Below, piece after piece: positions 23,060 through 47,116 of a stretch of DNA of 64,000 nt. The DNA comes from Erythrobacter sp. 3-20A1M (GTDB taxonomy: Bacteria > Pseudomonadota > Alphaproteobacteria > Sphingomonadales > Sphingomonadaceae), in NCBI RefSeq assembly GCF_018636735.1, contig NZ_CP045200.1:2324001-2388000 (forward strand). Reading direction: 5' to 3'. A program made the position numbers and the translations under genes. Position 1 is the first letter of the stretch. Every line of letters starts with the position of its first letter. The notes beneath the pieces were generated by a model. It saw nothing but the letters and a program-made list of their open reading frames with translations. It had not been told where the DNA came from and did no database searches.

Positions 23060-24301
23060 CTAACCCTCTTCGGTCTTTGGCGTTCCGCCCCTGTCCCATC
23101 TTGCGACCGACGCCGTCACGGTCAGGTTGGCGCTTGCGCTGGCTACCGTGCGCGTCATGTCGAGCAGGCGGTCGAACGGCAGGACGAAGCCGATCACGAG
23201 CGCGGTCTGTGCGGTCGAGACGCCGACCGAGGCAAGCACCGCCGCCAGCATGAAAAGCGAGGCCGAGGGTATCGGGGCCGTCCCGAAAGCGGCGAGCGAT
23301 CCGGTCAGCAGCACGATGCCCAGCATGGGGAGATCGGGTGTCACGCCCAGCGCCTGAAGGCTGAAGACGCTGAGCAGCCCGACATACATCGCCGTCCCGT
23401 CCTTGCCGATGCTCGCACCGATCGGAAGCACGGTCGAAGCGACGCCGCGATCGATGTGCATCTTGTCGATCGCGATCCGCAGGGCGACGGGCAAGGTCGC
23501 CGCTGAGGATGCGGTGGCGAAGGCCACGGCGAGCGCGTCCACCGCGGCGCGGTAGAACCGGCCCATATGCCGCCTGGCGACCAAGGCGAGCAAGGGCATG
23601 TGAACGAGCGCCATCTGCGCGATCACGCCGATGACCACGCACAGGGCCAGCCAGCCGATATTGGCAAACACCGCCACGCCGTTCTGCGCCACCGCCACCG
23701 CGATCAGGGAGAAGACCCCGTACGGCGTGAATTCCATCACCAGCGCGACGAGGCGGAACAGGATTCGTGCGGCCGATTGCAGCAGCACGGCGACCGGCCG
23801 TCCTTCCTCGCCCGCCAGCACGGTGGCGAAACCGAAGGCGATGGAGAAGAAGATGATCGCGAGCATGTCGCCAGAGACCAGCGCCTCGACCACGTTGACC
23901 GGCACGATCCCCATCAGCTGGTCGTAAACCGGCACGGGTTCGCCCAATTGGTATGCCTCGCCATTACCGATCGCTGCGCCCGCGCCCGGCTCGATCAGCA
24001 GGCCCATGGCCATCCCGATCATGACCGCGCAGGCGGTGGTGAAGGCGAACAGGGCGACCGTGCGGCCGCCGACCGCGCCCAGTCTGCGCGGATCGGCGAG
24101 CGCGGTGACGCCCGACGCGATGCTGATGAAGACGATCGGCACCACCAGCATGCGGATCAGCCGCACGAACAGATCGCCGAGAAAGGCGGTATAGGCGGTC
24201 GCCGAGGGAGCGAGCAGGCCGAAGGCGATCCCGGCGATCAGGCCGACCAGCACGCGGCGCCACAGCGCCATCGCCTGCCATCGCCGCAACCATCCCCCCA
24301 T
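23060..24301 (-). CDS. Dicarboxylate/amino acid:cation symporter (DAACS, GltP/DctA-like)
   Basis: A 413-residue inner-membrane symporter that would take up glutamate, aspartate or C4-dicarboxylates with sodium or protons. Family features are visible: RMLVVPIVFISIASGV near the N-terminus, the serine-rich ATASSAATLPVALR, LPIGASIGKDGTAMY, and GTAPIPSASLFML. The ATG at 24301 is preceded by GGAGGG at good spacing; another ATG lies six bases upstream. It follows the DgcA/DgcN genes on the same strand, which suggests that it imports their substrate or a related amino acid. Confidence 0.85.
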   Translation of the reverse strand: MGGWLRRWQAMALWRRVLVGLIAGIAFGLLAPSATAYTAFLGDLFVRLIRMLVVPIVFISIASGVTALADPRRLGAVGGRTVALFAFTTACAVMIGMAMGLLIEPGAGAAIGNGEAYQLGEPVPVYDQLMGIVPVNVVEALVSGDMLAIIFFSIAFGFATVLAGEEGRPVAVLLQSAARILFRLVALVMEFTPYGVFSLIAVAVAQNGVAVFANIGWLALCVVIGVIAQMALVHMPLLALVARRHMGRFYRAAVDALAVAFATASSAATLPVALRIAIDKMHIDRGVASTVLPIGASIGKDGTAMYVGLLSVFSLQALGVTPDLPMLGIVLLTGSLAAFGTAPIPSASLFMLAAVLASVGVSTAQTALVIGFVLPFDRLLDMTRTVASASANLTVTASVARWDRGGTPKTEEG

Positions 24302-24312
24302 GCTCATCCCTC

Positions 24313-25317
24313 CTACCCTGACGCGCCCCAGAATCCGGCACGAGGCGCACGCAGCATGCCGTCTGCCAGCGAGACACCGTCCGGGCGATCTTCGGCCAGC
24401 CAGAGCGGGCCGTCCAGATCGACGAACGCGCTATCCGCAGCCAGCGCCAGGGCAGGGGCGATCGAGAGCGACGAGCTGACCATGCACCCGGTCATGAGGC
24501 CGAGCCCGCGTTCGCGCGCTCCGTGCGCCAGCTCCAGCGCCGCGGTGAGCCCGCCCGACTTGTCGAGCTTCACATTGGCGACGGCGTACCCGCTCGGCAA
24601 ACCGTCGAGATCGGCAGCGGTGTGGATTGATTCGTCGGCGGCGATCGGAATGCGCGAGCGGAAACCATCGAGACCCCTGTCCTCTCCCGCAGGAAGCGGT
24701 TGTTCGAGCAGGTCGACACGCAATTCGACCATCAGGTCCTGCAATTTCTCCATCTCCCGCATCGACCAGCTTTCGTTGGGATCGACGATCAGGCGCGGAT
24801 GCGGGGCCGCTTCGCGCACGGCGCGCAATTGTGCGGCGGGATCGCTGGCATCGACCTTGACCTTTATCAGCACCGCATCGGCCAGATCGCGCGCTGCCGC
24901 GCCCATCGCGTCGGGCGTGTCGAGGCCGACCGTGAGGGCGGTGGGGATCGGTGGGAGCGGTTCGGCGAGGCCGAGCTCCGCGAAAACGCTCTTTCCCGCC
25001 AACTGCGCTTCGAGATCCCAGAGCGCGCAGTCCACCGAATTGCGCGCGGCGCCGGCGGGCATGAGGTCCAGCAGCTCCTCCCGACCGACCCCGGCCTCGA
25101 TCGCAGAACGCTGCGCTTCGATCGCCGCGAGCGCGCTCGCCACGCTTTCGCCGTAACGCGGATAGGGCACGCCCTCGCCGCGCCCCACGGCACCGTCCTG
25201 CGCGATGGCGACCGTCACCACGTCCGCCGCGGTTTTGACCCCGCGCGAGATGCGGAATGGCCGGGCGAGCGGGAGGCTCTCGTGGCGAGCGGAAAGGGTG
25301 CGCGGCGGTGTCGCCAT
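24313..25317 (-). CDS. dgcA: Dipeptide epimerase / N-acetyl-D-glutamate racemase (DgcA-like)
   Basis: A 334-residue enolase-superfamily enzyme of the L-Ala-D/L-Glu epimerase subgroup. Catalytic K-x-K is K152/K154, metal ligands are D179, E205 and D228, and the second-face lysine is K250. This family includes murein-peptide epimerases (YcjG) and DgcA, which racemises N-acetyl-D-Glu. The gene overlaps the DUF1611 gene upstream (ATGA) with a LysR gene behind it. That arrangement is known from the DgcN-DgcA-DgcR D-glutamate pathway, so I favour DgcA. The Ala-Glu epimerase role would equally suit the surrounding murein genes. Confidence 0.8.
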   Translation of the reverse strand: MATPPRTLSARHESLPLARPFRISRGVKTAADVVTVAIAQDGAVGRGEGVPYPRYGESVASALAAIEAQRSAIEAGVGREELLDLMPAGAARNSVDCALWDLEAQLAGKSVFAELGLAEPLPPIPTALTVGLDTPDAMGAAARDLADAVLIKVKVDASDPAAQLRAVREAAPHPRLIVDPNESWSMREMEKLQDLMVELRVDLLEQPLPAGEDRGLDGFRSRIPIAADESIHTAADLDGLPSGYAVANVKLDKSGGLTAALELAHGARERGLGLMTGCMVSSSLSIAPALALAADSAFVDLDGPLWLAEDRPDGVSLADGMLRAPRAGFWGASG

Positions 25318-26339
25318 CAGGCCCGCTCGGCCCCTTCCATCGGCCCGAGCAGCGCGTCGAGGATCGGCTCCACGCCCATGCGATGCGGATCGATGCACGG
25401 CAGGTCGTGTTCGTCCTGCAAGCGCAGGCACAGCGCCAGCGCTTCGTTGGCATCGAGGCTGGAGGTGTTGAGCGCGATGCCGATCATTCGCACGTCGGGG
25501 CTGGTCAGCCGCGCGGTCGCCAGGTTGGCCGCGATACATTCGCCGAGAGCGGGCGGGGCGCGGCGGGTCAGCCCGCGCATCACCCGCCGCGTGGGATCGT
25601 GGCACATCACCAATGCGGCCGGTTGGGCACCGTGCAGCAACCCCGTCGAAACCCCTGCGAAGGAAGGATGGAACAGCGATCCCTGGCCCTCGATCAGATC
25701 CCAGCCATCGTCGTGCCGGGCAGGTGCAAGTTGTTCGATCGCGCCCGAGATGAAGTCCGCCACCACGGCGTCCAGCGGGACGCCCGCGCCCGCCACCAGT
25801 ATACCCGTCTGCCCGGTCGCACGAAAATCGCAGGCGACGCCGCGCGCCTCCATCCCGCGTTGCAGCGCCAGGGTCGTGTACATCTTGCCGGACGAGCAAT
25901 CGGTGCCGACCGTCAGCAGCCGGTTGCCCACCCTCGGCTCGCCCGATCCCACCACGAGGTCCGCAGGCGGGTGGCGCACGTCGTGGAGCTGGCGTCCGGT
26001 GCGCTCCGCCGCCTCCACCAGTCGCGGCTCGTCCTTCAATCGCCGGTGCAGGCCGGATGCGATGTCGAGGCCGGCCTCCATCGCCGCGATCGCATCCTCG
26101 ACTATATCCCGGTCGAGCGTGCCCCCCGCATTGACCATGCCAAGCACCATGGTCCGCGCACCGGCCGCTGCGGCTTCTGCGAAGCCCATGCGCGGCAGGT
26201 CGAGCGTCAACGTGCAGCGATCGGTACGGAATTCGCCGACGCAGCTTTCCGGTCGGAAGATCGCCAGGCCGCGCGCGGTCTTGATGGCGTAGGGATCGGT
26301 CGCATTGCCGAGATACAGAAGATAGGGTGTCGCGATCAT
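25317..26339 (-). CDS. dgcN: DUF1611 protein, D-glutamate N-acetyltransferase (DgcN-like)
   Basis: A 340-residue DUF1611 protein. The P-loop-like GTDCSSGKMYTTLALQRGM and the downstream GQGSLFHPSFAGVSTGLLHG are hallmark stretches of the family. Members called DgcN acetylate D-glutamate with acetyl-CoA so that DgcA can racemise it. The stop overlaps the dgcA start by four bases and the LysR gene lies 90 bases upstream. Function is assigned by family plus gene order. Confidence 0.8.
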   Translation of the reverse strand: MIATPYLLYLGNATDPYAIKTARGLAIFRPESCVGEFRTDRCTLTLDLPRMGFAEAAAAGARTMVLGMVNAGGTLDRDIVEDAIAAMEAGLDIASGLHRRLKDEPRLVEAAERTGRQLHDVRHPPADLVVGSGEPRVGNRLLTVGTDCSSGKMYTTLALQRGMEARGVACDFRATGQTGILVAGAGVPLDAVVADFISGAIEQLAPARHDDGWDLIEGQGSLFHPSFAGVSTGLLHGAQPAALVMCHDPTRRVMRGLTRRAPPALGECIAANLATARLTSPDVRMIGIALNTSSLDANEALALCLRLQDEHDLPCIDPHRMGVEPILDALLGPMEGAERA

Positions 26340-26429
26340 AAGTTGCTCGAAAGCCTAAGGGAACGTGATCCTAACCGTCCGGAGGCGGCTTACCCAGCTT
26401 GTGCATGACACCGCAGGCATAGCGTCCGG

Positions 26430-27314
26430 CTATACCGCGTCGATCACGTCCGCGAGCAGATCGAGGAAGTCCGCGCCCGCGCGCGACGGAGGTCGGGTTT
26501 GCAGATAGACCGCATTGATGTTGAAGGTGAGCGCGGGTTGCAGGGGGCGGCTGGCAAGCCCCGCTGCGAGCGACGATTCAGCCGTGAAATTGTCCACGAT
26601 CGCCATGCCGAGGCCCGCCCGCACCAGCGCCGCCGCGATGTAATAGGTCCGGGAGGAGGCACTCTCGGTCAGGGTCACGTCGAGCCGTTCGAGCTCGCTG
26701 CGTAGCGATTCCCCGATCGGGCCGTTCTGGATCGGGCTGATGAAATCCCGGCCCACCAGATCGGCGAGGTGCAGGCGCGATGGGGCATCGGGCAGGTCCT
26801 CGGGCCGGAACAGCACCACCAGCTCGCCCTCCCCAATCACCTGGTGGGCGACCGGGGCGGCCGGGGGAACCTCGAAACTGATCGCGATATCGGTCTCGCG
26901 CTCGTAGAGTTTGCGCACGATCTCGTCGTGATGGAGCGTCTGGAGGTCGAAGCGGATTTCGCCGCGCTTCGCCGTGAACTGCGCTACCGCTTCGGGCAGC
27001 GCGCCGAGGCCGAGCGAGGGTAGGGCGGAAATGCGCAGCAGGCTGCCTTCGCCCTGGCGCAGGTTCTGGCAGGCCTGGCGCAGCGAGCGCACGCGGTCCT
27101 GGATATCCGATACCTCGCCGAACAGGGTGCGGGCATCCTCGGTGGGGATCAACCGGCCCTTGGTGCGCTCGAACAGGTCCAGCCCGAGCGACTTTTCCGC
27201 GTGCCGCAGCACCTTGGTTACGCTGGGCTGCGAGACGTTGAGCGCGCGCGCCGCGGCGCTGACCGTGCCGTGAAGAAACACGGCGTGGAAGACTTCGATC
27301 TGGCGCAGATTCAT
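26430..27314 (-). CDS. LysR family transcriptional regulator (DgcR-like)
   Basis: A 294-residue LysR-type regulator. The N-terminal helix-turn-helix is LRQIEVFHAVFLHGTVSAAA followed by LNVSQPSVTKVLRHAEKSLG. A periplasmic-binding-protein-like effector domain follows. It precedes dgcN-dgcA on the same strand, as DgcR does in known D-glutamate loci, and is divergent from the D-aminoacylase gene. Its target and inducer (perhaps D-Glu) are inferred. GATAC-CCC-GTATC at 27430-27442 in the divergent gap is a weak candidate site. Confidence 0.85.
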   Translation of the reverse strand: MNLRQIEVFHAVFLHGTVSAAARALNVSQPSVTKVLRHAEKSLGLDLFERTKGRLIPTEDARTLFGEVSDIQDRVRSLRQACQNLRQGEGSLLRISALPSLGLGALPEAVAQFTAKRGEIRFDLQTLHHDEIVRKLYERETDIAISFEVPPAAPVAHQVIGEGELVVLFRPEDLPDAPSRLHLADLVGRDFISPIQNGPIGESLRSELERLDVTLTESASSRTYYIAAALVRAGLGMAIVDNFTAESSLAAGLASRPLQPALTFNINAVYLQTRPPSRAGADFLDLLADVIDAV

Positions 27315-27487
27315 CGGCTGGACGACCTCCTTGGGCGGACACGCATTCGCCGGGGTTATACGCCCGGCAGGCGCGGGATGGCAAAGGGGTGGACGGATCG
27401 GCGGCGATCGTAAATGCCTGTCGTGCGCGGATACCCCGTATCATTCCGATGCGGGCCGCATGCCGCGCGCGAGGAGGAGCTTTGCCC

Positions 27488-29095
27488 ATGTCCCCACCCA
27501 ACAACCGGAGCCTGACTTCGCTCATGGCGCTCGCATGTTCGCTGGCGCTGGGGGCCTGTGCCACCACCGCTCCTCCACCGGTCGATGTCGTGATCAAGGG
27601 CGGCACGGTTTACGACGGTAGCGAGGATGCGCCCTTCACCGGCGACGTCGCGATCGCGGGCGATCGGATTGCCTATGTGGGGCCGCCTAGGTCCTTCGCG
27701 GCGACACGGGTGATCGAAGCGGGCGGCATGATCGTCGCGCCCGGCTTCATCGATCCCCACACCCATGCGGACATCTTTCTGCGCTCCGACGATCCGGCCG
27801 AGCGCGTGAACGCGGCGTGGCTGGCCCAGGGGGCGAGCACGGTCGTGATCGGCGTCGATGGCGGCGGCACGCCCGATGTCGCCGAGGACGCGCGCAAGCT
27901 CGCCGCCTCGGGGATAGGCACCAACGTCGTGCCCTTCGTCGGGTTCGGTGCCGTGCGCAGCCGCGTATTGGGCGATGCCGCGCGCGCGCCGGACGAGGCC
28001 GAACTCGCCCGGATGAAGGACATGGTGGTAGGCGCGATGTGCGCGGGCGCGACGGGATTCTCGACCGGCCTGTTCTACGCCCCGCAAAGTTTCGCGAGCA
28101 CGGAAGAGGTGATTGCCCTTGCGCGCGAGGCGGGGAGCCGCGGCGGGCTCTACGACACGCACCAGCGCGACGAATCCTCGTACACGATCGGATTGATGGA
28201 CTCGAGCCGCGAGGCGATCCGGATCGGCGAGGAAGCAGGCGCGCCGGTCCATTTCGCGCATATCAAGGCGCTGGGCGTGGATGTGCAGGGCAAGGCGCCG
28301 GAGCTGATCGCGCTGATCGACGCCGCGCGCGCGCGCGGCGTCGACGTGACCGCCGACCAGTATCCCTGGCTCGCTTCGGGATCGAGTCTCGATGCGTCGC
28401 TCCTGCCGCGCTGGGCGGTCGATGGCGGCGGCAGCGCGCTTCTGGCGCGACTCGCCGAGCCGGAGACGGCGGCACGGATCCGCAACGAAATGGAGGAGAA
28501 CCTGCGGCGCAGGGGCGGGGCGAAATCCCTGTTGCTGACCGCGCCCGCGCGCCCCTGGACCGGTCGCACCCTGGCCCAATACGCGGCGGTGCAGGGCTCC
28601 GACCCGGTCGACACCGCGCTGGCGATCATCGCGCAGGTCGTGCGCGAGGGGGGCAGTGGGACCGAGGTCGCATCGTTCAACATGGCACCGGAGGATGTCG
28701 AGCTGCTGATGCAGCAACCCTGGGTCGTCACATCGTCCGACGGGTCGCTCGGCCACCCGCGCATGTTCGCCACCTATCCGGAGAAATACCGGACCTATGT
28801 GCGCGAGCGGGGGACGATCGACCTCGCGCGGTTCATCCGCCAGTCGACCGGCCAGGTCGCGGATATCTACCGCATCGCGGAGCGGGGCTATCTGAAGCAG
28901 GGGTATTTCGCCGATGTCCTGGTGTTCGATCCCGCGAAGTTCGCGCCGCGTGCGACCTATCTCGATCCGCGCGAGCTGAGCGTCGGGGTCGAGGCGCTGT
29001 TCGTGAACGGCCGGTCGGCGGTAGAGCACAGCCAAATTACCGGCGAGGCGGCGGGACGGGTGCTGCTGCGGCCCCAACCGGAAAACTGCCCCTAA
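27488..29095 (+). CDS. N-acyl-D-amino-acid deacylase family amidohydrolase, lipoprotein
   Basis: A 535-residue amidohydrolase-superfamily protein of the D-aminoacylase type. A signal peptide ends in the lipobox ALGAC, so it is probably anchored in the periplasm. Metal site motifs are APGFIDPHTHAD and the later HFAHIKALG. DTHQRDES and VTSSDGSLGHPR are typical of D-aminoacylases. It would release free D-amino acids from N-acyl or peptide forms. The ATG at 27488 is preceded by AGGAGGAGC. The position beside the DgcN/DgcA genes fits supply of D-Glu. Confidence 0.82.
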   Translation: MSPPNNRSLTSLMALACSLALGACATTAPPPVDVVIKGGTVYDGSEDAPFTGDVAIAGDRIAYVGPPRSFAATRVIEAGGMIVAPGFIDPHTHADIFLRSDDPAERVNAAWLAQGASTVVIGVDGGGTPDVAEDARKLAASGIGTNVVPFVGFGAVRSRVLGDAARAPDEAELARMKDMVVGAMCAGATGFSTGLFYAPQSFASTEEVIALAREAGSRGGLYDTHQRDESSYTIGLMDSSREAIRIGEEAGAPVHFAHIKALGVDVQGKAPELIALIDAARARGVDVTADQYPWLASGSSLDASLLPRWAVDGGGSALLARLAEPETAARIRNEMEENLRRRGGAKSLLLTAPARPWTGRTLAQYAAVQGSDPVDTALAIIAQVVREGGSGTEVASFNMAPEDVELLMQQPWVVTSSDGSLGHPRMFATYPEKYRTYVRERGTIDLARFIRQSTGQVADIYRIAERGYLKQGYFADVLVFDPAKFAPRATYLDPRELSVGVEALFVNGRSAVEHSQITGEAAGRVLLRPQPENCP

Positions 29096-29100
29096 AGCAA

Positions 29101-29158: not shown

Positions 29159-32068
29159 TTAGAATTCGAGCCGGACGCCGACACGGAACGAGCGGCCCAG
29201 CAGGTCGCTATACGTGCTGTTCGCAGCCAGCCCGGTTTCGGGCAGGATGATCGGATCGGCATCGAACAGGTTGGTGATGTGGATGAACACCTCCGCATCC
29301 CCGCCCATCGTTTCCGCGATCTTGGCCGTGGCGTTGAGGTCCACGTAGAACACCCCGTCGATGCTGTTGTCGCTGGTGGTGCGCGCCGTCGGGGTCGTTG
29401 CCGGGCACGAAGCGGTGCATCCGAAGCGGGTGGCCGAATAGCGCCCGCTGCTCACGCCCCGACCGACCGCGGTCAGGCCGAAATCCGGTGTCTGCAGCGA
29501 GATCGAGCCACGGTAGAGCCAGTCGGGCGGCCCGCTGCCCGACAGGGTGCCGAGCGAGCTGATCGGTTCGCTGATCCCGTCGTCGGTGATGCTTTCGAGA
29601 TAGTGCGTCGCGACCGCGCGGAACGACAGCGAGCTGTCCGGCATGCTCAGCAGATCGTACAGCGGCACGCGGTACGACACGTCGAAATCGATGCCTTCGT
29701 TCTTCACGACGTTGAAGTTGAAGAAGCTGGCGCGGAAGAACAGGTCGCGCACCCCATCGGGATCCGGGCCGTAGGCGTTGCAGAACTGCTGCACCCCTTC
29801 CTGACAGCGGTCGAAGACCGCCTGCGCGCCGTAGGCCCCGATCGCGCCGTCGATCTTGACCTTGTAATAGTCGATCGACGCCATCAGCCCGGGGATGAAC
29901 CGCGGGGTGAGCACCACGCCGCCGGTCAGCGACTTGCTGATTTCCGGCTCCAGATCGAGGTTGCCCGACAGCACAGCGCGGTAGCTTTGGCCGTTCTCCA
30001 ACGTGCTGGTGTTGGAGCTGCCCGCCTGGAACAGCTCGTTGAGGTTGGGCGCACGGATGTCGCGCGAATAGGTGCCGCGCAGCCTGATGTCGTCGATCGG
30101 CTGCCACGTCGCGCCGACCTTGTAGGTCGTGACATAGCCGGACGTCGAGTAATCGGTCGCGCGTACGGCACCGTTGAAGGTAATGCCGAGACCCAGCGGT
30201 ACGACCGTTTCGAGATAGGCTTCCTTGACGTTGTAGTCGCCGAAGGTGGGCACATAGTTGCCGACCTGGAACCCGCCCTGGAATTCTTCGGGGACGGAGC
30301 CGGACACTTCCTCCTTGCGGTACTCGCCGCCGACCGCGAGGCTGACGTCGCCCGCCCACAGGGTGAACGGGGTGAACGATAGGTTCACGCCCGCCACCGT
30401 CTGCTGGAGCTTCTGGTCGCGATAGGGATCGCCGAGGAAGTAGTCGAACGAAGCGGGGTTCGCGACGCCCTGGCCGAACACGTTGAGCGGAATGCATCCG
30501 TTGCCGGGGTTGGTCAGCGTGCTGCGGCAGACGATCGTACCCGCGGCCACGCCCGCCGCGTTACCGGCGGGCGCGAACACCGCATCCACCGCATTGGCGA
30601 ACTCGGTATTCTTGATGATGTCGCGCAGCTGTTCGTGCGAGTTCGTCTCGCCGTACTGAACGTAGGCGTCCCAGATCGCGGGCTTGCCGGCGATGTCGAA
30701 CGAACCCTCGAACCCGCCGACATAGCGCTGCACGTCGCGCGTGTTGTTGAGCTTGCGGAAGGGTACGTCGGACAGCGTTGTGCCGATGGCGACCGAGGTC
30801 ACGTCGGCAGGCAGAAGCGAGCCGAGCGCCTGCTGCAGATACGCGTTGTCCCGCGGAATGTTCGCCAGCGGCCCCGACGACGTGCTCGTGAAAAACTGCG
30901 GACCCGCGTTGAAGAGGGTTTCCTGCCAGTTGTACGACGCCTCTACGAAAGCGGTCGCCCATGGCGTCACATCGAAGCTGAGGCGACCGAAGACGTTGCG
31001 GCGGTCTTCCTCCGCGCCCAGGCCGATGCGGCGGTTGGTGTCGTCCACCAGGTAATCGCCGCCGATCGTGATGGTGCCGGCGTTGGGATAGGTGCCGTAG
31101 TCGTAGCGATTGATCGACCCGCCCGGACCGAAATAGATCCCTCTCAGGCTGTTGGGCGTGCCGCCGCGCGAGGCGTTGATGATGCCGCCCGGTGCCGAAT
31201 TGTTGCGGTTGCCGGGGCCGACCACGAGGAACTGCGGCTGGCCGTTCGTCGCGGTGTAATCGGGGTTGCCGATGATCTGCGGCACGCCGAAGTTCCAGTC
31301 GCGGTCGACCGAGAAGATGCCGTCCTGGTGCGACAGCTGTCCGCTGAGGAGCAGGTGTCCGCGTCCTTCGGCGAAGGAGGTGCCGCCCGCAGCGCTGACC
31401 TGCCAGGTGAAGCCGTCGCCCTCGTCGGTGATGCCGGTGTTGGCGCTCAGTTTCAGGCCCTGGTAGCGCTTGTCGAGGATGAAGTTGACCACGCCCGCAT
31501 CCGCATCGGAGCCGTAGGCGGCCGAGGCACCGCCGGTCACGACCTCGACCCGGCTTATCAGCTGCTGGGGGAAGGTGTTGACGTCGACGTACCCCTGTAC
31601 GGTCGAGGGCACCGTGCGCCGCCCGTCGAGCAGGACGAGCGTACGCTCCAGCCCCAAGTTGCGCAGGTTGATCGTGTTGATGCCCGAAATGCCCGAGCTG
31701 ATGTTCAAGCGCGAGTTCGACAGCTGCGAACTGCCCGCGACCGAGGGAAGCTGGTTCACGAGGTCGAACAGATTGTTGGTCGGCGCTTCCGACTGGATCT
31801 GTTCGGTGCTGATGACCGTCAGCGGCGTCGGGCTGTCGAAGCCGAGGCGCGCGACGCGCGACCCGGTGACGATGATCTCTGTCGAAGGCCGCTCGACCGA
31901 ATCGACGGTACGCGTGACCGGGTCCTCGTCGTCATCGGTAGCGACGGTCTGTGCCGCAGCCGGAGATGCCAGAAGGCCGATCGCCGCCACACTGGCGAGC
32001 GCGTTGCGCCGCGCGAAACAGGAGCGCGAAAAGGCGGAAAGCGTACGAGTCCGCAAAGAAGAGTTCAT
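29159..32068 (-). CDS. TonB-dependent outer-membrane receptor
   Basis: A 969-residue receptor. A signal peptide (ASVAAIGLLASPAAAQ) is followed by a TonB-box-like STEIIVTGSRV and the plug domain with NLRNLGLERTLVLLDGRR and VEVVTGGASAAYGSDADAGVVNFI. The 22-strand barrel ends in the expected aromatic (VGVRLEF). It takes up a large ligand using TonB energy. The ligand is not readable from sequence; the murein-catabolism neighbours on both sides suggest a peptidoglycan fragment or peptide. The ATG at 32068 has GAGGG upstream. Confidence 0.93.
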   Translation of the reverse strand: MNSSLRTRTLSAFSRSCFARRNALASVAAIGLLASPAAAQTVATDDDEDPVTRTVDSVERPSTEIIVTGSRVARLGFDSPTPLTVISTEQIQSEAPTNNLFDLVNQLPSVAGSSQLSNSRLNISSGISGINTINLRNLGLERTLVLLDGRRTVPSTVQGYVDVNTFPQQLISRVEVVTGGASAAYGSDADAGVVNFILDKRYQGLKLSANTGITDEGDGFTWQVSAAGGTSFAEGRGHLLLSGQLSHQDGIFSVDRDWNFGVPQIIGNPDYTATNGQPQFLVVGPGNRNNSAPGGIINASRGGTPNSLRGIYFGPGGSINRYDYGTYPNAGTITIGGDYLVDDTNRRIGLGAEEDRRNVFGRLSFDVTPWATAFVEASYNWQETLFNAGPQFFTSTSSGPLANIPRDNAYLQQALGSLLPADVTSVAIGTTLSDVPFRKLNNTRDVQRYVGGFEGSFDIAGKPAIWDAYVQYGETNSHEQLRDIIKNTEFANAVDAVFAPAGNAAGVAAGTIVCRSTLTNPGNGCIPLNVFGQGVANPASFDYFLGDPYRDQKLQQTVAGVNLSFTPFTLWAGDVSLAVGGEYRKEEVSGSVPEEFQGGFQVGNYVPTFGDYNVKEAYLETVVPLGLGITFNGAVRATDYSTSGYVTTYKVGATWQPIDDIRLRGTYSRDIRAPNLNELFQAGSSNTSTLENGQSYRAVLSGNLDLEPEISKSLTGGVVLTPRFIPGLMASIDYYKVKIDGAIGAYGAQAVFDRCQEGVQQFCNAYGPDPDGVRDLFFRASFFNFNVVKNEGIDFDVSYRVPLYDLLSMPDSSLSFRAVATHYLESITDDGISEPISSLGTLSGSGPPDWLYRGSISLQTPDFGLTAVGRGVSSGRYSATRFGCTASCPATTPTARTTSDNSIDGVFYVDLNATAKIAETMGGDAEVFIHITNLFDADPIILPETGLAANSTYSDLLGRSFRVGVRLEF

Positions 32069-39605: not shown

Positions 39606-39697
39606 TGAAAAATCCCTCAGGGTCATAGCCGCGTCCTATAGGGCAGCGGTGTCGATACAGCTTGGCAATGCGCAACGGTACGCGATACGCCGCCGGG

Positions 39698-40579
39698 ATG
39701 AGCACAGAGAGCATCGATCCCGAACTGCAGGAAATCGACCGCTGGCCGCTGGAGCGCGCGGTTGCCGCGATCCTTGCCGGGCAGGGCAGGGCCGTGGCCG
39801 CCGTCGCGCGGGTGGACGGGGCGATCGCAGATGCTGCATCGGCTGCGGCGGCGAGACTGGGGGCGAGCGGCCGGATCGCCTATGCGGGCGCGGGCACATC
39901 GGGCCGGATCGGCGTGCAGGACGGGGTGGAGCTGAGGCCCACATTCGGCTGGCCGGAGGATCGGCTCGCCTTCTTCCTCGCCGGTGGACCCGATGCGATG
40001 ATGCGCGCGGTGGAAGGGGCTGAAGACGACGAGGGTGCGGGACGTACCGCGGTAAGTGAGGCCGGATTGGGCGTGGCGGACGTCCTGATCGGCCTGGCGG
40101 CGAGCGGACGCACTCCCTTCACGATCGGTGCCGTGCGGGAAGCGCGCGAGCGCGGAGCGCTGACCATCGCCGTCGCAAACAATCCCGGCAGCGCCCTGCT
40201 GCAGGCAGGCGAGCACGCGATCCTGCTCGATACCGGAGCGGAAGCGGTCGCGGGATCGACCCGGTTGGGTGCGGGCACCGCTCAGAAAGCGGCGCTGAAC
40301 GCGCTCTCTACCGCGATCATGCTGAAGCTCGGCCTGGTGTATCGCGGACTGATGGTGAACATGCGCATCAGCAACGCCAAGCTGGAAGGCCGGGCGATCG
40401 CGATGATCGAACGGGTCGCGGGCGTCGATGCGGATCGCGCGAAGCATGCCCTGGCGATCGCCGAGGGCGATATTCGCGTCGCCGTGCTGGTGGCGCTCGG
40501 ACACGATCGCGAAGCGGCCCGGCGCTCGCTGGAAACGGGCGAACCGTTCGACGCCATGGTCGAGCGGCTGCGCGGCTAG
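39698..40579 (+). CDS. murQ: N-acetylmuramic acid 6-phosphate etherase
   Basis: A 293-residue SIS-fold etherase that cleaves the D-lactyl ether of MurNAc-6-P to give GlcNAc-6-P. The signature AYAGAGTSGRIGVQDGVELRP contains the catalytic Glu (shortened view: DGVELRPTFG). AVEGAEDD holds the second conserved Glu region and MRISNAKLEGRA the C-terminal family motif. Its product feeds NagA, encoded just across the divergent gap. The ATG at 39698 gives the family's normal N-terminus (STESIDPELQEID); upstream in-frame starts add only a short tail. Confidence 0.93.
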   Translation: MSTESIDPELQEIDRWPLERAVAAILAGQGRAVAAVARVDGAIADAASAAAARLGASGRIAYAGAGTSGRIGVQDGVELRPTFGWPEDRLAFFLAGGPDAMMRAVEGAEDDEGAGRTAVSEAGLGVADVLIGLAASGRTPFTIGAVREARERGALTIAVANNPGSALLQAGEHAILLDTGAEAVAGSTRLGAGTAQKAALNALSTAIMLKLGLVYRGLMVNMRISNAKLEGRAIAMIERVAGVDADRAKHALAIAEGDIRVAVLVALGHDREAARRSLETGEPFDAMVERLRG

Positions 40580-40583: not shown

Positions 40584-42440
40584 TCAGTAGAACCGCACAT
40601 CGCTCAGCTCCAGCCAGGCACGCCCGCCAGGCTCGCCGGTCAATTCGAAGCGGAGCGCCCGCAGGCGTTCGAGATCGAGTTGCGCCTCGCCGCTCGTGGC
40701 GAACGCAGCGAAGGGCAGGTGGATTGTCTGCTCCTCGGCCCCCGCAGTGAAATCGGTCCGGAACCAGTCCCGCCCGTTCAGGCCATAGCTTTCGAGGCGC
40801 AGGCGGTAGGTCCCGGCACCCCGCGCGGTGAACTCTATGCCCGTGAACCGGCTGGCATCGGCGGGCAGAACCGCGCCCTTCGTCAGAGGCAGAACGAGCT
40901 GTGCAAAAGGCTTCGCGCTGGCACCGAACGTCGCCAGGCTGAAGATCGGATGGTCGCCCGTGGGGCCGTGGCGATGGACGAACGCGATATCGCTGTGGTC
41001 GTTGCCCGCATCGGTCGAATCGACCGGCAGGGTGTCGAGATCGGTTCGCCCGTCCGCGCGCGCGCCGGTGAGGATCGGGCCGGGCATGCGGACCGTCGGC
41101 AGCGGCGTCATCGCCGGATCGTCGCGCCGGGCGCGCAGCTGCACCAACGGCACTTCGCGGCCCGCTTTCCACACCCGCGCCACTTTCCAGAGGTCGGTGA
41201 TGTCCTCGTCCGGTCGCCCGTCGACCAGCACGAGATCGGCGCGCTTGCCGACCTCGATTGTGCCGTGATCGTCACCCTGTCCCATGATCTGCGCGCTGGT
41301 GCGGGTGGCCGCGATCAGCGCCTCGGCGGGGGTGAAGCCGAGCTGGACCAGCCAGCCGATCTCACGGATCGTGGAACTGCCGTGATAGACGCCGCTGATC
41401 CCCGCATCGGTTCCGACGCCTATCGGAATGCCGGCGTCGTGCATCGTCCGCAGATTGGCTTTCAGAACGCCCCATCGGCTGGACACTTCGGCATCGACGA
41501 CGCGATTGCCGCGCGCGGCCCGCGCCGCTTCGCGCGCGCGTTCCGGAGAGGAGAGCACCGCTTCTTCCGCGTCCGAAATGGTGCGGACATCGCTTGGCTC
41601 GTAGACGACCAGCGTCGAAACATAGGCCGTGCCCTGTTTGCGCATCAGGTCGATCACTTCCCGGTCGGCCGGCCTATCCCCGATCCCGTGCACGACCGCG
41701 TCGACGCCCGCCGCAGCGGCAACCTTCGCGCCCTCCAGCGTCACCGTATGCGTCACCACCGGCGTGCCGCGCGCATGGGCATCGGAAACGATCGCGGCGA
41801 GGGTTTCGGTGTTCATGGAATTGAGGTCGGGCCCGCGATTGTAGCGCCAGCCATCGGCGAAAACCTTCACCACGTCGGGCCGATAGGGCAGGGCGCGATC
41901 CATGATCAAATGCGCGGCGCGTGGGCTTGCAGCCTTCATCGTGAAGAAGTCGCCCCAGCCGTATTCGGTGCCGTGTCCGCCCGGCACGCCCGCGCGGACC
42001 GCAAGGTTGAGATGCGGTGCCCAGATCGCGTCCGGTCCGCTCGTCATCGCGCGGATCGGCTCGAGCATTTCGGCGGACAGCGAATAATCGTTCACCGTGG
42101 TGACGCCGTTGACGAGGTAGGCCGCCCAGGCCTTCGCCATGTCCTCCGGCGCGGAATAGGCGGGCGAGCGTAGATGGGTGTGGAGATCGTGCAGGCCGGG
42201 TATCAGCGTCCGGCCCTTCGCATCGACCACACGCGCGCCGCGCGGACGCCGAATGTGCGGGGCGACCTGCGCGATCGTGCCGCCGCGGATCAGGACGTCG
42301 CCGCGAAACGCGGGTGTGCCCGTGGCATCGAAGATACGCGCGTCGCGGATCAGCGTCACGTCGTCCTGCCGCGCGTCGGCGGGCAACACGGTGACGCCGA
42401 TTACCAGCGCCGCGATCAGGGCGAACAGGGCGCGGATCAT
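40584..42440 (-). CDS. Secreted amidohydrolase with C-terminal beta-sandwich-like domain
   Basis: A 618-residue amidohydrolase-superfamily enzyme, exported by a signal peptide ending near LPADARQ. Metal motifs are LIPGLHDLHTHLRS, THTVTLEGAKVAA, VVHGIGD and IGVGTDAGISG. The last roughly 150 residues look like an extra all-beta domain (PFAQLVLPLTKGAVLPADAS, IEFTARGAGTYRLRL), perhaps a galactose-binding-like fold. The substrate is probably a peptide or N-acyl compound. The start overlaps the stop of the S9 peptidase gene (ATGA). It ends four bases from the murQ stop. Confidence 0.82.
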   Translation of the reverse strand: MIRALFALIAALVIGVTVLPADARQDDVTLIRDARIFDATGTPAFRGDVLIRGGTIAQVAPHIRRPRGARVVDAKGRTLIPGLHDLHTHLRSPAYSAPEDMAKAWAAYLVNGVTTVNDYSLSAEMLEPIRAMTSGPDAIWAPHLNLAVRAGVPGGHGTEYGWGDFFTMKAASPRAAHLIMDRALPYRPDVVKVFADGWRYNRGPDLNSMNTETLAAIVSDAHARGTPVVTHTVTLEGAKVAAAAGVDAVVHGIGDRPADREVIDLMRKQGTAYVSTLVVYEPSDVRTISDAEEAVLSSPERAREAARAARGNRVVDAEVSSRWGVLKANLRTMHDAGIPIGVGTDAGISGVYHGSSTIREIGWLVQLGFTPAEALIAATRTSAQIMGQGDDHGTIEVGKRADLVLVDGRPDEDITDLWKVARVWKAGREVPLVQLRARRDDPAMTPLPTVRMPGPILTGARADGRTDLDTLPVDSTDAGNDHSDIAFVHRHGPTGDHPIFSLATFGASAKPFAQLVLPLTKGAVLPADASRFTGIEFTARGAGTYRLRLESYGLNGRDWFRTDFTAGAEEQTIHLPFAAFATSGEAQLDLERLRALRFELTGEPGGRAWLELSDVRFY

Positions 42441-44494
42441 CGGGACGGTTCTAGCTTGCGCTCGAAGAAATCGCCCGACGCTTCGAGCGCGGTCAGCCAG
42501 CTGGCGTAACGGAAGAAATCGTGGCGTTCGTTCGGCAGCGCCAGTTCCTCGAAAGGGACGCCGCGCGCGGTGAGTTCGCGCGCCAGCAGCAGCGACTGGC
42601 GATAGTCGACATTGCGATCGTCGTCTCCATGGACGATCAGGACGGGGGAACGCCATTCATCGATCGCGCCCATCGGCGAGCTGTCCCATTGCAGGCGTTG
42701 AATGGCGAGCACCTCGTCCGGCGCATAGGAGTCGGGGACCGAGCGCACCATGGCATGCACCCCGTGCAGGTCGACGCCCGCGGCGAACAGGTCGCTGTCG
42801 CGCGCGAGGGCGAGGGCGGTGAGATAGCCGCCCCAGCTTCCGCCCCAGATGCCGATCCGCGCTGGATCGACGCCGGGCCGCGCCGCGAGCCACCGCGCGC
42901 CTGCCACGATGTCGCGATATTCCGACGCTCCATCGCGCCCGGTGCCGGGCGCTTCGCGGAAGGCGCGTCCGTAATTGGTGCCACTGCGGTAATTGACCGA
43001 CAGGACATCGTAGCCCGCCGCTGCGAATTCCTGATTCCGGATATAGGTATTGTGGTAATAGAAATACGGGTGGAAGGCGGCGACCATTTGCCGCCGCGGG
43101 CCCCCGTGGGCGAAGATCAGGGCCGGTCGCGCTCCGTTACCCACGCCCCGGAAATATTGGCCATGCACAACCGTACCGTCCTCCGCCGTGAAGGTGACGT
43201 TTTCCGGTGCGGGATAGCCCGCGATCGTCGGCTTGCGGCCGAGCGGCTCCATTCCCTCGACGAGAACCATGTGCGCAGGGGACCGGGCGTCGGTCACCGT
43301 CGCGGCCAGCCGCTCGCCACCATAGGTGGGGAAGAAGGCGTACTGCCCGTCGCCGGTAAGGCGCTTTGTCTGTCCGCTCGCGATATCGGCTTGCCACAGG
43401 GTGCGGCTGTCGAGATTGCCGGGGTTCGCGGAATAGATCACGCCGTGCCCATCCGGGGTGGGCACGAAATTCTCGACCTCGTTTGCATCCGGCGTCAGGT
43501 CGCGCGCTGGGCCGCCCGCCGCGGGCACCGCCAAGACATGGAGCCAGCCGCTGCCTTCGTACGGAAACAGGAGATGGCCGGACGCGGTCCAGAACAGGTT
43601 GCGCCCGCGTGTGCCGTAATATTGACCGCCGTCGCCTTCGGGCGCGGACCATGCAATGCGAACCGCTCCGGTCGCGATGTCGGCGACGCGCACCGACCAG
43701 AAGGATTTGCGGCTGTCGGCGAAGCGGGCGGGCGGATCGCGGAACTGGATGAAGGCGACCGAACCACCGTCGGGCGAAAATACCGGGTCGCTCGAATAGC
43801 CGAGCGTCGCGCCCAGATAGCGCAGGTTGCTTTGCGCCACGTCGATCACGCCGACGACGCTGTGGCCGGAGCGCGATTCGAGGAACAGGACCTTCGATCC
43901 GTCGGGCGACCAGCTGAAATCGCCTGCGTTGCCGCGCAGATCGGCGATCCGCCGCGCGTCTTCCTCGCCCGCCCGGACCATGATCGACCCGGCGCGGGTG
44001 AACAGCAACTTGCGCCCATCGGGGGAAAATACCGGATCGTGACCCTGCCCCATCGGGCTCGGCGGTGAAACGGAAGAGAGGTCCGCGAAGAACACGGTCT
44101 GGTTCGGTGCCTCGACGCGTTGGGCGGTGTTGGGCAGGCCGTCGTCGGGAAAGGATGCATCGCCGCCGCGCACGAAAGCGAGCCGCGTTCCGTCCGGCGA
44201 CAATGCCAGGCCGTAAATCTCGATCCCGTCGTCTTCGCGATAATCGGTCACCTGGCGCGGCGCTTCCCCTGCGCGCGCGACCATCACGTTGCGCACGCCG
44301 CGCGTATTTTCCACCCACGCGAAGACCGGTGCCAGCTCCGCGCCGACGAGCCCCGAGGCGAAGGGTATGGCAAGTCGTTCCGCCAGCAGATCGGCGCTCT
44401 GGGCGTTCGCTGCTCGATCCGGCACATCGACCTGCGCCAGTGCAGGGCCGGGCGACAGGAGTAGCGCCGTCAGGACAAGGAAAAGCGATCGCAT
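42437..44494 (-). CDS. S9 family prolyl oligopeptidase-like peptidase
   Basis: A 685-residue exported serine peptidase. The signal peptide ends at GPALAQ. A TolB-like beta-propeller fills the N-terminal half with repeated FSPDG and WSPDG units. The C-terminal alpha/beta-hydrolase holds the nucleophile in GIWGGSWGGYL, the Asp near IVHGDDDRNVDY and the His in NERHDFF. It would cut short peptides in the periplasm. It is coupled to the downstream amidohydrolase gene, and a gap of 109 bases separates it from the serine hydrolase gene. Confidence 0.9.
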   Translation of the reverse strand: MRSLFLVLTALLLSPGPALAQVDVPDRAANAQSADLLAERLAIPFASGLVGAELAPVFAWVENTRGVRNVMVARAGEAPRQVTDYREDDGIEIYGLALSPDGTRLAFVRGGDASFPDDGLPNTAQRVEAPNQTVFFADLSSVSPPSPMGQGHDPVFSPDGRKLLFTRAGSIMVRAGEEDARRIADLRGNAGDFSWSPDGSKVLFLESRSGHSVVGVIDVAQSNLRYLGATLGYSSDPVFSPDGGSVAFIQFRDPPARFADSRKSFWSVRVADIATGAVRIAWSAPEGDGGQYYGTRGRNLFWTASGHLLFPYEGSGWLHVLAVPAAGGPARDLTPDANEVENFVPTPDGHGVIYSANPGNLDSRTLWQADIASGQTKRLTGDGQYAFFPTYGGERLAATVTDARSPAHMVLVEGMEPLGRKPTIAGYPAPENVTFTAEDGTVVHGQYFRGVGNGARPALIFAHGGPRRQMVAAFHPYFYYHNTYIRNQEFAAAGYDVLSVNYRSGTNYGRAFREAPGTGRDGASEYRDIVAGARWLAARPGVDPARIGIWGGSWGGYLTALALARDSDLFAAGVDLHGVHAMVRSVPDSYAPDEVLAIQRLQWDSSPMGAIDEWRSPVLIVHGDDDRNVDYRQSLLLARELTARGVPFEELALPNERHDFFRYASWLTALEASGDFFERKLEPSR

Positions 44495-44603
44495 GACGGC
44501 TTGCCTAGGGCGCTCCATAGGTTCGTGACAAGCGCAGCGATCCCGCCGCATGCCAACGGGTTATAGGCGGGGGCAAAGGGCGCATGGAACGCCCGAAGCC
44601 CGG

Positions 44604-45617
44604 TTATTTCCGGCCATCCCATGCTTCCACCACCGCGCGCCCTACCGCCGGTCGCAATTCGTGGATGGCTCGGTCGCGATGGCGGGTGGGATGAACGCGA
44701 TTGGTCAGCAGCGTCCAGGTCATCTCCCGCTCGAAATCGATCCACAGGCCGGTGCCGGTGAAGCCGGTATGCCCGATCGTCGTGCGCGAGCACGCTTCCC
44801 CGCCCGACCAGCCGCCATAGGGCAATTCCCATCCATGCGTGCGGTGGTGGAATTGCGAGGTGCGGATGAGGCGTAGCGATTCAGGCGACAGCACCTCGCC
44901 CGCCATCAGCGCGCGCGCGAATTCCAGGACGCCGTCCACCGTACCGAACAGTCCCGCATGGCCGGGCGCGCCGCCCAGGGCCGCCGCGTTCTCGTCATGC
45001 ACCTCGCCCTTCAGGATGCGGTTGCGCCAGGTGCAGAATTCCGTCGCGACTGCCGGCCCCGGAGGCGGCCCGTAGGACAACCCGTCGCCGAGCGGCCAGT
45101 CCGACAGCGGTGCGCCCGTGATCCGTTCCACCGCGATCCCGAGCAGGATGAAATTGATGTCGGAATAGACCGGCGAGCCATGCTCCCACGCGCGTTGCAG
45201 GACGAAGGCGCGCATGCGCAAGGGGTCGTCGCCATAGGTGTAGATCGGGAAAACGGCGGGCAGGAAGGTCTGATGCGCGAGACATTGGCGAAAGGTGATC
45301 CGCCGTTCCGGCGCATGTTCGACATCGTATTGCCGCAGGTCGGGGATTGCGCTCGTCAGCGGCGCGTCGAGATCGAGGCGGCCTTGTTCGGCTAGGGTCA
45401 ACACCATCGTGGTGGTGGCGATGGTCTTGGAAACCGAGGCCAGATCGAACCAGTGGCCACGCGTGAGGGGCTCGGGTTCGGGCGTAGTCGCGGCATTACC
45501 GGCGAACGCGACCGCGCTCGTGCCGTCCGCACCGATGACCCCCAATGCGGCGCAGGGCATCCGCCCTTCCTCGACCATGCGGCGGGCGGGGGCGAAAGCG
45601 TGTTCTATATCCATCAT
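44604..45617 (-). CDS. Beta-lactamase-fold serine hydrolase (class C type)
   Basis: A 337-residue protein of the class C beta-lactamase/esterase family. The catalytic S61-V-S-K64 lies in FDLASVSKTIATT. The Tyr motif appears as VYSDIN, and the third motif is in IGHTGFTGTG rather than KTG. It has no signal peptide, so it probably works in the cytoplasm, perhaps on imported murein peptides. The start overlaps the stop of the AmpG gene. Two adjacent ATGs (45617 and 45614) are equally possible. Confidence 0.85.
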   Translation of the reverse strand: MMDIEHAFAPARRMVEEGRMPCAALGVIGADGTSAVAFAGNAATTPEPEPLTRGHWFDLASVSKTIATTTMVLTLAEQGRLDLDAPLTSAIPDLRQYDVEHAPERRITFRQCLAHQTFLPAVFPIYTYGDDPLRMRAFVLQRAWEHGSPVYSDINFILLGIAVERITGAPLSDWPLGDGLSYGPPPGPAVATEFCTWRNRILKGEVHDENAAALGGAPGHAGLFGTVDGVLEFARALMAGEVLSPESLRLIRTSQFHHRTHGWELPYGGWSGGEACSRTTIGHTGFTGTGLWIDFEREMTWTLLTNRVHPTRHRDRAIHELRPAVGRAVVEAWDGRK

Positions 45618-47116
45618 GCGGCCTCCACCGGCCCGGCGCTCGGCCCGCGCGAGCGAATTCGCGCGAGGAAGGGAAGGAAGACGATAGCGGCAATACTCGC
45701 CGCGCCCGTCAGAGCGAAGAACCCGTCATAGCCGATCACCTGCTGCATTTCGCCCGAAGTTCCTGCCAGCAGCCGCGCGAGCAGGAAGGCGAAGCCCGAC
45801 AGGAAGGCGTATTGCGCCGCCGGGAAGCGCGGGTTCACCAGCATCGAGAGATAGACCACGAAAACCGCCCCCGCGAGCCCGTTGCCGAGCTGGTCGACGG
45901 CGACGCTGGCGTACAGCACCCAACCTTCGGGCGGTTGCCACCACAACCAGACATAGACCCAATTGCCCAGCGCCGCGACCAGCGCGCCTGCCGCGAGAGC
46001 CCAGGACAAGCGCCATCTCGCGGCCATCCAACTGCCCAGAGCGACACCGATCATGCTCGCCGGCAAAGCGATTGCGCCATCGGCGATGCCGATCTGGTCC
46101 AGCGAATAGCCGCGCGCGTCCCACATCGGATGCGATAGCGTCAGCGCCAGCACGTCGCCGACGCGGTAGAGCGAAACGAATCCTAGCACGACCAGCGTGG
46201 CGAAGCCGTAGCGCCAGAAGATGTCGACGAAGGGCCCAAGGGTCGTCGAGCTTAGCAGCGGCGCATCGCTCGGCAGGCGCTTGATCCGCGGCAGGGCCGC
46301 CGCGAGCAGCGCGAAGGGCGCGAGAGCGATCGCGATCACGGCAGGGGTCAGATTGGTCTCCGGATCGATCCCCGCGCCCGCCAGCATGCGCAAGGCGAGC
46401 CAGCCGACCACGGCGACGATCGCGCAGGACGCGGCGAGGATCACCGCCCCGATCGCCACGCCCGTCCCGAGCGCATGCCAGCGCGCACCGTCGGTGCCGG
46501 GCTCGCGACCGGTCAGCGCCAGCACCGGAAAGGGAGCAAACGCGGCCAGCGCGATCGCGAGATAGGCGATCGTCCAGTCCGCGCGCGCCGCGATCAGCAC
46601 CGCGCCGCTGCCCGCCGCGACCATCGCGCTGCGATAGCCCCAGAGATTGGCCGCCACGATCGGGGCCTGCGCCTCCTGGGTCGGGGCCAGTTCGATACGC
46701 CAGCCGTCCGCCGCGACCTCCAGCGTGGTGGTCCAGAAGGCGAGCAGGATTGCGAACAGCGCGACCAGGGCGAGATCGGTGTCGTCGCTGGTGAAGGCCA
46801 TGCCCACCATCGCGGCGAAGATGCCGAGCTGTGATAGCATGATCCATCCGCGCCGCTTGCCCCAGAACCGCGAGAACCCGGGCACCGAGAACCGGTCGAG
46901 CAGCGGCGACCAGAGGAACTTGAAGGTCGGCAGCAGCGCCACCCACGCGAAATAGCCGATGGTCACGATGTCGATGTCGTGCCGCGCCAGCCTCAGCAGC
47001 AGCACCGCATTGAACATGAAGAAGGGCAGGCCGGCCGAAAAACCGAGCAGGAGATAGAGCGGCAGGATGCGGGTGCGAAGCTTCCGCCCGCCATCGTAAT
47101 CGGTGGTCACGTCCAA
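45614..47116 (-). CDS. ampG: AmpG-like MFS permease for muropeptides
   Basis: An MFS transporter of about 500 residues with twelve or more hydrophobic segments. The N-terminal [24 protein letters not shown] and the early [27 protein letters not shown] (read in parts) match AmpG, which imports GlcNAc-anhydroMurNAc peptides into the cytoplasm. [13 protein letters not shown] is another AmpG-like stretch. The start is uncertain: TTG at 47116 has GGGGAG at good spacing, and GTG at 47110 or 47164 are alternatives. It is the first gene of the four-gene minus-strand run. Confidence 0.85.

Follow-up and report, generated by a model that had tools for sequence, protein, structure and literature searches.

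The window analysed here, 64,000 nucleotides of DNA from Erythrobacter sp. 3-20A1M (NZ_CP045200.1; all coordinates are those of the window), contains 16 consecutive genes that probably serve in the salvage of external peptidoglycan. The case for this role is built on gene content and gene context; the ligand of the outer-membrane receptor, the enzyme activities and the induction of the locus are predicted. The block spans positions 23060-47164 (ending at 47116 or 47164 depending on the start chosen for AmpG2), with no further gene seen between its members. An original prediction, made from the letters of the window, had listed the same 16 genes, and profile searches found them in their places and in the families named, with the corrections given below. 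It had also proposed scavenging rather than recycling alone, which is favoured by a separate housekeeping AmpG, the lack of AnmK and of a phosphotransferase system (PTS) EIIC component, the patchy presence of the locus and a second lysA gene in four relatives.

In the pathway that we propose, a TonB-dependent receptor would take up soluble murein fragments that exceed the size limit of porins and deliver them to the periplasm, where a PBP4-type peptidase, an S9 peptidase, an exported amidohydrolase, a lipoprotein D-aminoacylase and an Ntn hydrolase would cut the stem peptides and free D-glutamate (D-Glu). The D-Glu would be imported by a dicarboxylate symporter, acetylated by DgcN and racemised by DgcA, giving N-acetyl-L-Glu. 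The sugar-bearing part would enter through AmpG2; in the cytosol a class C serine hydrolase (or an AmpD-like enzyme encoded elsewhere) would strip the peptide from N-acetylmuramic acid (MurNAc), and NagZ, encoded elsewhere, would remove N-acetylglucosamine (GlcNAc). A BadF-type kinase would phosphorylate GlcNAc and reducing-end MurNAc, MurQ would yield GlcNAc-6-phosphate, and NagA and NagB-II would feed glycolysis. A hydropathy scan predicts export of the lipoprotein D-aminoacylase, receptor, acylase (the Ntn hydrolase), PBP4, S9 peptidase and second amidohydrolase, an inner-membrane location for the symporter and the AmpG-like protein, and a cytosolic one for DgcA, DgcN, the LysR regulator, kinase, NagA, NagB, MurQ and class C hydrolase. 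A more specific version is possible, although we put its chances somewhat below even: a Sphingomonadales system running from outer membrane to cytosol, in which the receptor would import reducing-end muropeptides, a new AmpG clade, together with a translationally coupled cytosolic class C amidase, would carry the sugar part inward, one GlcNAc/MurNAc kinase would bypass AnmK, and two exported D-specific hydrolases (one of them the Ntn enzyme, cutting D-Glu-linked amides) would feed DgcNA.

Are these genes kept together in relatives? The original prediction had staked itself on this point, and the grouping does recur in many genera, with the order shuffled. Four of the proteins were searched for in 149 genomes of the family, including that of 3-20A1M (code G000). 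Full-length MurQ occurs in 14 genomes (leaving out 40 with SIS-domain matches only, at E 4e-7 or worse), the class C hydrolase in 16 (at least 59%; G101, at 38%, is left out), the receptor in 13 (at least 53%, with five candidates scored per genome) and DgcN in 20 (at least 59%); the two other genomes of the genus gave no MurQ, class C gene or DgcN in these searches. For co-location, the receptor set comprised these 13 genomes and five more at 48-49%, leaving out G046 (48%) and a second G091 copy (48%). The genes of a pair lie within 30 kb of each other in 11 of the 13 genomes that have both class C and DgcN, 11 of 12 for class C and receptor, 6 of 8 for MurQ and class C, and 15 of 16 for receptor and DgcN, the last with the five 48-49% genomes included. 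Nominal binomial P values range from 1e-8 to 1e-23, assuming random placement and independent genomes.

The same picture emerges from 24 stretches of 22 relatives selected by a MurQ, class C or receptor match, where a neighbourhood match meant 45% identity over half of the query, and two stretches of G110, about 340 kb apart, counted as one genome. The presence of class C (14 of 22), MurQ (13) and the receptor (12) is due to this selection, unlike that of the other 13 proteins: D-aminoacylase and PBP4 (14 each), DgcA (13), DgcN and LysR (12 each), AmpG2 and the kinase (10 each), symporter, acylase, NagA and NagB (9 each), amidohydrolase (7) and S9 peptidase (6). Outside the cluster families, no family of open reading frames (ORFs) occurs in more than six of the 22, the commonest being, by sequence, a GntR-like regulator (6 of 22). 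Ten proteins flanking the block in the window were matched in none of the 24 neighbourhoods at E 1e-15; the surroundings are thus unconserved, including those in G064, which keeps the cluster order.

Genera differ in gene order, and the way in which the parts come apart defines three modules. Module A (DgcN, DgcA, D-aminoacylase and receptor) stands without B or C in 20-kb stretches of five genomes (G098, G144, G102, G004 and G083), accompanied by LysR in four of the five and a symporter in three. Module B consists of AmpG2, class C and PBP4, with or without the S9 peptidase and the amidohydrolase. Module C (MurQ, kinase, NagA and NagB) is joined to A and B in the window, G064, G058 and G112, and to A and part of B in G073; G045 and G081 have MurQ and the kinase without NagA or NagB nearby. 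The sugar genes are an optional part of the cluster. In G045, murQ, ampG2, class C, S9, amidohydrolase, PBP4 and receptor genes stand in a row on one strand (the amidohydrolase being placed from the neighbourhood comparison, not from ORF calls), and the first three overlap by 4 bp each. A Sphingopyxis contig (L078) has lysR, dgcN, dgcA, ampG2, class C and pbp4 all in one direction. Among loci selected through the class C protein (the 80 best of its 586 relatives, 29 from Sphingomonadales and 51 from other groups; L080 and L097 were judged the same genomes as G081 and G012, and L082 was classed as a sphingomonad by isolate name), AmpG2 lies directly upstream of class C on the same strand in 24 of the 29 Sphingomonadales loci. 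PBP4 occurs in 21 of these loci, the D-aminoacylase in 19 and the receptor in 14 (45% identity over a quarter of the query), and several of the contigs end early.

Turning to the sugar branch, MurQ was scored on the ORF 39662-40579; the narrower profile TIGR00274 gave 238.6 against a cut-off of 302. Glu83 and Glu114 of Escherichia coli MurQ, which we take to be the catalytic glutamates, are kept in 14 of 14 MurQ proteins, and an ORF overlying murQ on the minus strand has no family match. The original prediction had counted NagZ, AmpD and AnmK as missing. The absence of AnmK extends to the whole genome, where no match was found with E. coli and Caulobacter controls positive, whereas NagZ (NF003740, 233.5 bits, cut-off 207) and an AmpD-like amidase (119.3 bits, below the cut-off of 143) are encoded outside the cluster. 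Without AnmK, the known route by which anhydro-MurNAc would reach MurQ is closed in this genome.

How, then, would MurNAc reach MurQ? AnmK is present in 48 of the 149 genomes and, among the 14 with MurQ, seven have it and seven do not (G000, G064, G058, G045, G073, G081 and G075). A MurP-type PTS entry was rejected, as no PTS EIIC was found in any of these seven AnmK-less genomes (7 of 14 controls were positive, including E. coli, Bacillus subtilis and Caulobacter). In all seven, a BadF-type kinase adjoins MurQ or lies two genes away. By elimination among the known entries, this kinase should make MurNAc-6-phosphate, and the cluster kinase is proposed to be a MurNAc kinase as well as a GlcNAc kinase. 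The original prediction had entry to the MurQ step use genes elsewhere or another route; on the same elimination, the GlcNAc kinase that it listed is itself the likely entry. Among solved structures the kinase matches 1zc6 (1.2e-35) and the MurNAc/GlcNAc kinase 8zo3 (2.5e-18); it scores strongly, yet below the equivalog cut-off, for NagK_SO3507, a GlcNAc kinase (233.8 vs 370 bits), as NagB-II does for NagB_SO3506 (322.5 vs 430 bits). It is 47-50% identical to MurQ-paired kinases of Rhizobiaceae and Alsobacter. In anhydro-MurNAc O-6 is closed in a ring, so an ordinary kinase cannot use it, and the substrate expected for the branch is reducing-end MurNAc, the form that muramidases make. The MurK type is described as having no bulky residue in the region of MurK 133-135 and no Asn or His at the Thr94 position, leaving room for the lactyl group (PMC10465942). 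With positions matched via human NAGK, all 11 kinases from MurQ neighbourhoods have GGYG, and all 11 have Ser or Thr in front of the catalytic Asp; 1zc6, named a GlcNAc kinase, shows this pattern too (GGWG, Thr), and 8zo3 has Asn. Neither these pocket residues nor the kinase tree separates GlcNAc from MurNAc kinases. G028 (L019-L020), G046 (L013-L014) and G032 (L023-L024) have a MurQ locus of another kind, which includes AnmK, a different TonB receptor and NagK/NagA/NagB, and in some cases a sodium/solute-symporter-like gene and a GntR-like regulator; it apparently serves GlcNAc and anhydro-MurNAc.

The AmpG permease of the original prediction proved to be an AmpG-like permease of the major facilitator superfamily (MFS), as named, and at the same time a deeply separate paralogue whose score, though strong, is below the family cut-off. 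TIGR00901 matches 147 of the 149 genomes at E 1e-30 or better, with a single match in 120; the genome of 3-20A1M has a housekeeping AmpG at C1:210430 (373 bits) in addition to AmpG2. In an AmpG tree, which carries a long-branch warning, 11 copies from clusters fall into a single group with full support, well away from the housekeeping copies. The AmpG copy near MurQ in G073 falls among the housekeeping type, so that AmpG was seemingly recruited to such a locus at least twice.

The genes for the class C hydrolase and AmpG2 share 4 bp in the window, as they do in six of eight relatives compared; by ORF calls the overlap is 1 bp in G081 and 34 bp in G039. The class C protein shares the motifs YSD, VHDE, GHAGLF and GHTG with E. 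coli PBP4B, a class C hydrolase encoded behind murQ and murP, although it is not identified as PBP4B itself (NF002968, 74.1 vs a cut-off of 385 bits), and it has no evident signal peptide whereas PBP4B starts with a signal-like stretch. Of the 51 class C loci from other groups, 21 include MurQ within the stretch retrieved and 17 a related kinase. In Agrobacterium cavarae (L118, 2837-12111) the genes run in the order kinase, MurQ, oligopeptide ABC transporter, class C and AnmK; in Microvirga splendida (L098, 6220-12954) they run AnmK, class C, MurQ and kinase, with divergent ABC transporter genes. These rows likely represent a muropeptide ABC import locus in Hyphomicrobiales. Amidase action on MurNAc-peptides fits these gene contexts, and the class C protein is a candidate cytosolic MurNAc-L-Ala amidase. 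In four loci of Thermaceae, relatives of Thermus (L135, L136, L138 and L140), the class C gene is directly followed by MurQ.

In the D-Glu set, DgcN and DgcA are encoded by adjacent genes and both exceed equivalog cut-offs (Table 1). The genome encodes another DgcN, 47% identical, at C1:501572-502555, with a further DgcA-like gene some 4.7 kb away. The lipoprotein amidohydrolase matches the D-aminoacylase 1m7j (1.1e-61) and the N-acyl-D-glutamate deacylase 3gip (1.7e-44), which makes it a candidate hydrolase of N-acyl-D-Glu or L-Xaa-D-Glu. The enzyme originally assigned to the penicillin-acylase family does belong there by its Pfam match (PF01804), but its nearest solved relative is the D-succinylase 7ea4 (E 9.6e-116, vs 1e-52 for the best penicillin G acylase); penicillin G acylase was accordingly rejected as its identity, and it looks D-specific. 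The D-succinylase type is reported to be D-selective, though not strictly so (PMC7431475). Since the L-Ala-D-Glu bond of murein is a bond to an acylated D-Glu, the D-aminoacylase-like and Ntn enzymes may both free D-Glu.

The TonB receptor matches solved receptors over the plug region alone (BtuB, 3.9e-16), and these structures give no hint to its ligand. In a receptor tree it clusters with the G045 and G112 receptors; the five receptors of module-A-only genomes form their own branch (100/99), and those that take its place in G058, G064 and G073, unrelated to it, make up a separate, fully supported clade. The presence of another receptor where this one is missing supports the idea that the locus needs a receptor, and also warns against assuming a single ligand. 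A link to murein peptides comes from lysA: four relatives (G010, G012, G073 and G081) each encode a pair of diaminopimelate decarboxylases that exceed the lysA cut-off, with one member of the pair inside the cluster or next to it, which suggests diaminopimelate as a product, on grounds separate from those of the original prediction, and ties the cluster to murein peptides. The own genome, G064, G058 and G045 have one lysA over the cut-off, and three of these have weaker matches too.

Several observations weigh against peptidoglycan salvage. AmpG2 falls below its cut-off and shares 25-37% identity with the housekeeping AmpG proteins to which it was compared, although it may function as AmpG does. 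Receptors vary, too: G064, with the same order of other genes, has an only 37%-alike receptor in the slot. In five genomes, a 20-kb stretch has the receptor (46-48%), D-aminoacylase, DgcA and DgcN but none of AmpG2, class C, PBP4 and MurQ, so that the receptor may take up something smaller than a muropeptide. AmpG2 is missing near the class C, PBP4 and receptor genes of G010, G012 and G021, and MurQ is absent from 8 of the 16 class C genomes. The window kinase is nearer to the NagBA-linked (39-41%) than to the MurQ-adjacent (27-29%) kinase of Microvirga, and kinases of its type are present in genomes with AnmK as well. No lysA and no muramidase lie in the cluster, a muramidase not having been sought genome-wide. 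Finally, the 3' end of the Ntn gene is in another frame than in G064, with a break near 34633-34645 (the G064 protein aligns in two frames); this may be a sequence error or a decaying gene, and the acylase is possibly broken.

Perhaps, then, the receptor and the D-Glu set serve a general use of D-amino-acid peptides or N-acyl-D-amino acids, and the sugar and AmpG2 sets, as neighbours, have some of the substrates in common with them. The five module-A-only genomes and the D-succinylase-like and D-aminoacylase-like character of the two hydrolases agree with this idea, as does an earlier prediction that a TonB receptor adjoining a D-aminoacylase gene takes up N-acyl-D-amino acids (PMC3400609). 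It is more difficult to see on this idea why the receptor should lie within 30 kb of class C in 11 of 12 genomes and stand in one row with murQ and ampG2 in G045. Moreover, the extra lysA copies point to diaminopimelate, a murein amino acid, and the five receptors found without class C have a branch of their own. We consider a general D-amino-acid function unlikely, but deserving of attention. Recycling of the cell's own murein, in the style of E. coli or Caulobacter, would account for the AmpG-like permease, MurQ, NagA, NagB and PBP4, all proteins of recycling type. However, nearly every family genome has AmpG, which in 3-20A1M is encoded outside the cluster; AnmK, the mark of E. coli- or Caulobacter-type self-recycling, is lacking for anhydro-MurNAc; a TonB receptor would be unneeded for periplasmic fragments; and the locus is patchy (MurQ in 14 and class C in 16 of 149). 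On the first three of these points self-recycling was rejected as the main role, and it now seems very improbable. That unrelated catabolic genes stand side by side by chance, as the use of both strands and a GC content near that of the flanks with no sign of an imported unit might allow, deserves next to no credence when the same genes regroup across so many genera.

Peptidoglycan salvage by this locus has partial parallels in known systems. Tannerella forsythia has MurQ, and the combination of MurQ, a kinase of the family that contains MurNAc kinases and no AnmK is also found here, the kinase substrate being predicted. Tannerella resembles the present case in AmpG-type import of external GlcNAc-MurNAc, a dedicated MurNAc kinase (MurK) and the absence of a predicted AnmK (PMC7670621, PMC10465942), import too being predicted here; its AmpG imports both GlcNAc-MurNAc and the anhydro form (PMC7670621). 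It differs in belonging to another phylum, and the available parts of these reports describe no D-Glu catabolic set, D-specific hydrolases or TonB receptor for it. The B. subtilis murQ-murR-murP-amiE-nagZ-ybbC and E. coli murQ-murP-PBP4B arrangements likewise place MurQ beside a peptide-cutting hydrolase, but rely on PTS import where the present locus has a TonB receptor and an MFS permease. B. subtilis AmiE has a class C fold. It is reported to be a MurNAc-L-Ala amidase (PMC5061867). Caulobacter crescentus has a TonB receptor with nagA/nagB in a GlcNAc cluster and encodes an AmpD-like amidase and NagZ, as here, but is described as lacking MurQ, using AnmK and MurU for anhydro-MurNAc and having a NagE-type PTS (PMC13046382).

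The DgcN-DgcA pathway, here joined to murein import and sugar genes, is described in the literature consulted as serving the use of free D-Glu (PMC10845958, PMC12363236). A 2012 study predicted, from gene context, TonB transporters for peptidoglycan and for N-acyl-D-amino acids (PMC3400609); these were in Pedobacter and a gammaproteobacterium, and its available text describes no linked sugar, AmpG or DgcNA pathway. Titles and abstract openings in the open-licence literature yielded no TonB-dependent muropeptide locus in Sphingomonadales. The parts are known (MurNAc scavenging in Tannerella, DgcNA and predicted peptidoglycan TonB receptors), and the locus brings them together. Murein and its D-amino acids are reported to contribute importantly to the refractory dissolved organic matter of the sea (PMC10845958, PMC12363236). 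With outer-membrane capture, D-Glu catabolism and MurNAc catabolism in one locus, there are genes with which to test who consumes murein. The locus names a candidate muropeptide TonB receptor. From it, functions can also be predicted for a clade of AmpG paralogues and for a class C hydrolase coupled to AmpG, which plain annotation would name a beta-lactamase.

Table 1. Genes of the 16-gene block, with window coordinates and the family or structure matches on which each name is based
Product	Position	Strand	Match
Dicarboxylate (Glu/Asp-type) symporter, likely D-Glu importer (ligand predicted)	23060..24307	-	PF00375, 1.2e-94
DgcA, N-acetyl-D-Glu racemase	24313..25317	-	NF042940, 421.7 bits (cut-off 400)
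DgcN, D-Glu N-acetyltransferase	25317..26339	-	NF041892, 508.7 bits (cut-off 480)
LysR regulator linked to dgcNA	26430..27314	-	PF00126/PF03466
Lipoprotein D-aminoacylase-like amidohydrolase	27488..29095	+	1m7j and 3gip; lipobox-like motif at Cys24
TonB-dependent receptor	29159..32083	-	PF00593, PF07715
Ntn hydrolase of the penicillin-acylase family, D-succinylase-like, exported	32546..34906	+	PF01804, 3.8e-144
PBP4-type DD-endopeptidase/carboxypeptidase, exported	34935..36428	-	TIGR00666, 183.6 bits (cut-off 107.8)
BadF/BcrAD-type amino-sugar kinase (start 36569 or 36590)	36569..37456	+	PF01869, 1.2e-32
NagA, GlcNAc-6-phosphate deacetylase	37441..38589	-	TIGR00221, 281.8 bits (cut-off 225.65)
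NagB-II-like SIS deaminase	38586..39626	-	NF046059, 322.5 bits (below cut-off 430)
MurQ, MurNAc-6-phosphate etherase	39698..40579	+	NF003915, 321 bits (cut-off 168)
Exported amidohydrolase (Xaa-Pro-dipeptidase-like)	40584..42440	-	PF01979, 2.9e-28; NF051886, 137 bits (cut-off 500)
Exported S9 peptidase (ORF start possible at 44551)	42437..44494	-	PF00326, 8.6e-36
Class C serine hydrolase, no evident signal peptide	44604..45617	-	PF00144, 4.1e-36
AmpG2, paralogous AmpG-like MFS permease (start maybe 47164)	45614..47116	-	TIGR00901, 319.5 bits (cut-off 350)

Four of the genes (lipoprotein amidohydrolase, acylase, kinase and MurQ) lie on the plus strand and 12 on the minus strand, which implies several transcription units. 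The GC content of the block is 0.671, against 0.666 and 0.662 in the flanks, and base composition thus gives no sign of recent import. Directly past the ampG2 end lie genes for tRNA-Pro (47259-47335) and tRNA-Met (47767-47842), a possible integration edge with no shift in base composition. To the left of the cluster, at 15201-17393, the window contains a sucrose-phosphate synthase-like gene with a phosphatase-like C-terminal part, with scores below the cut-offs.

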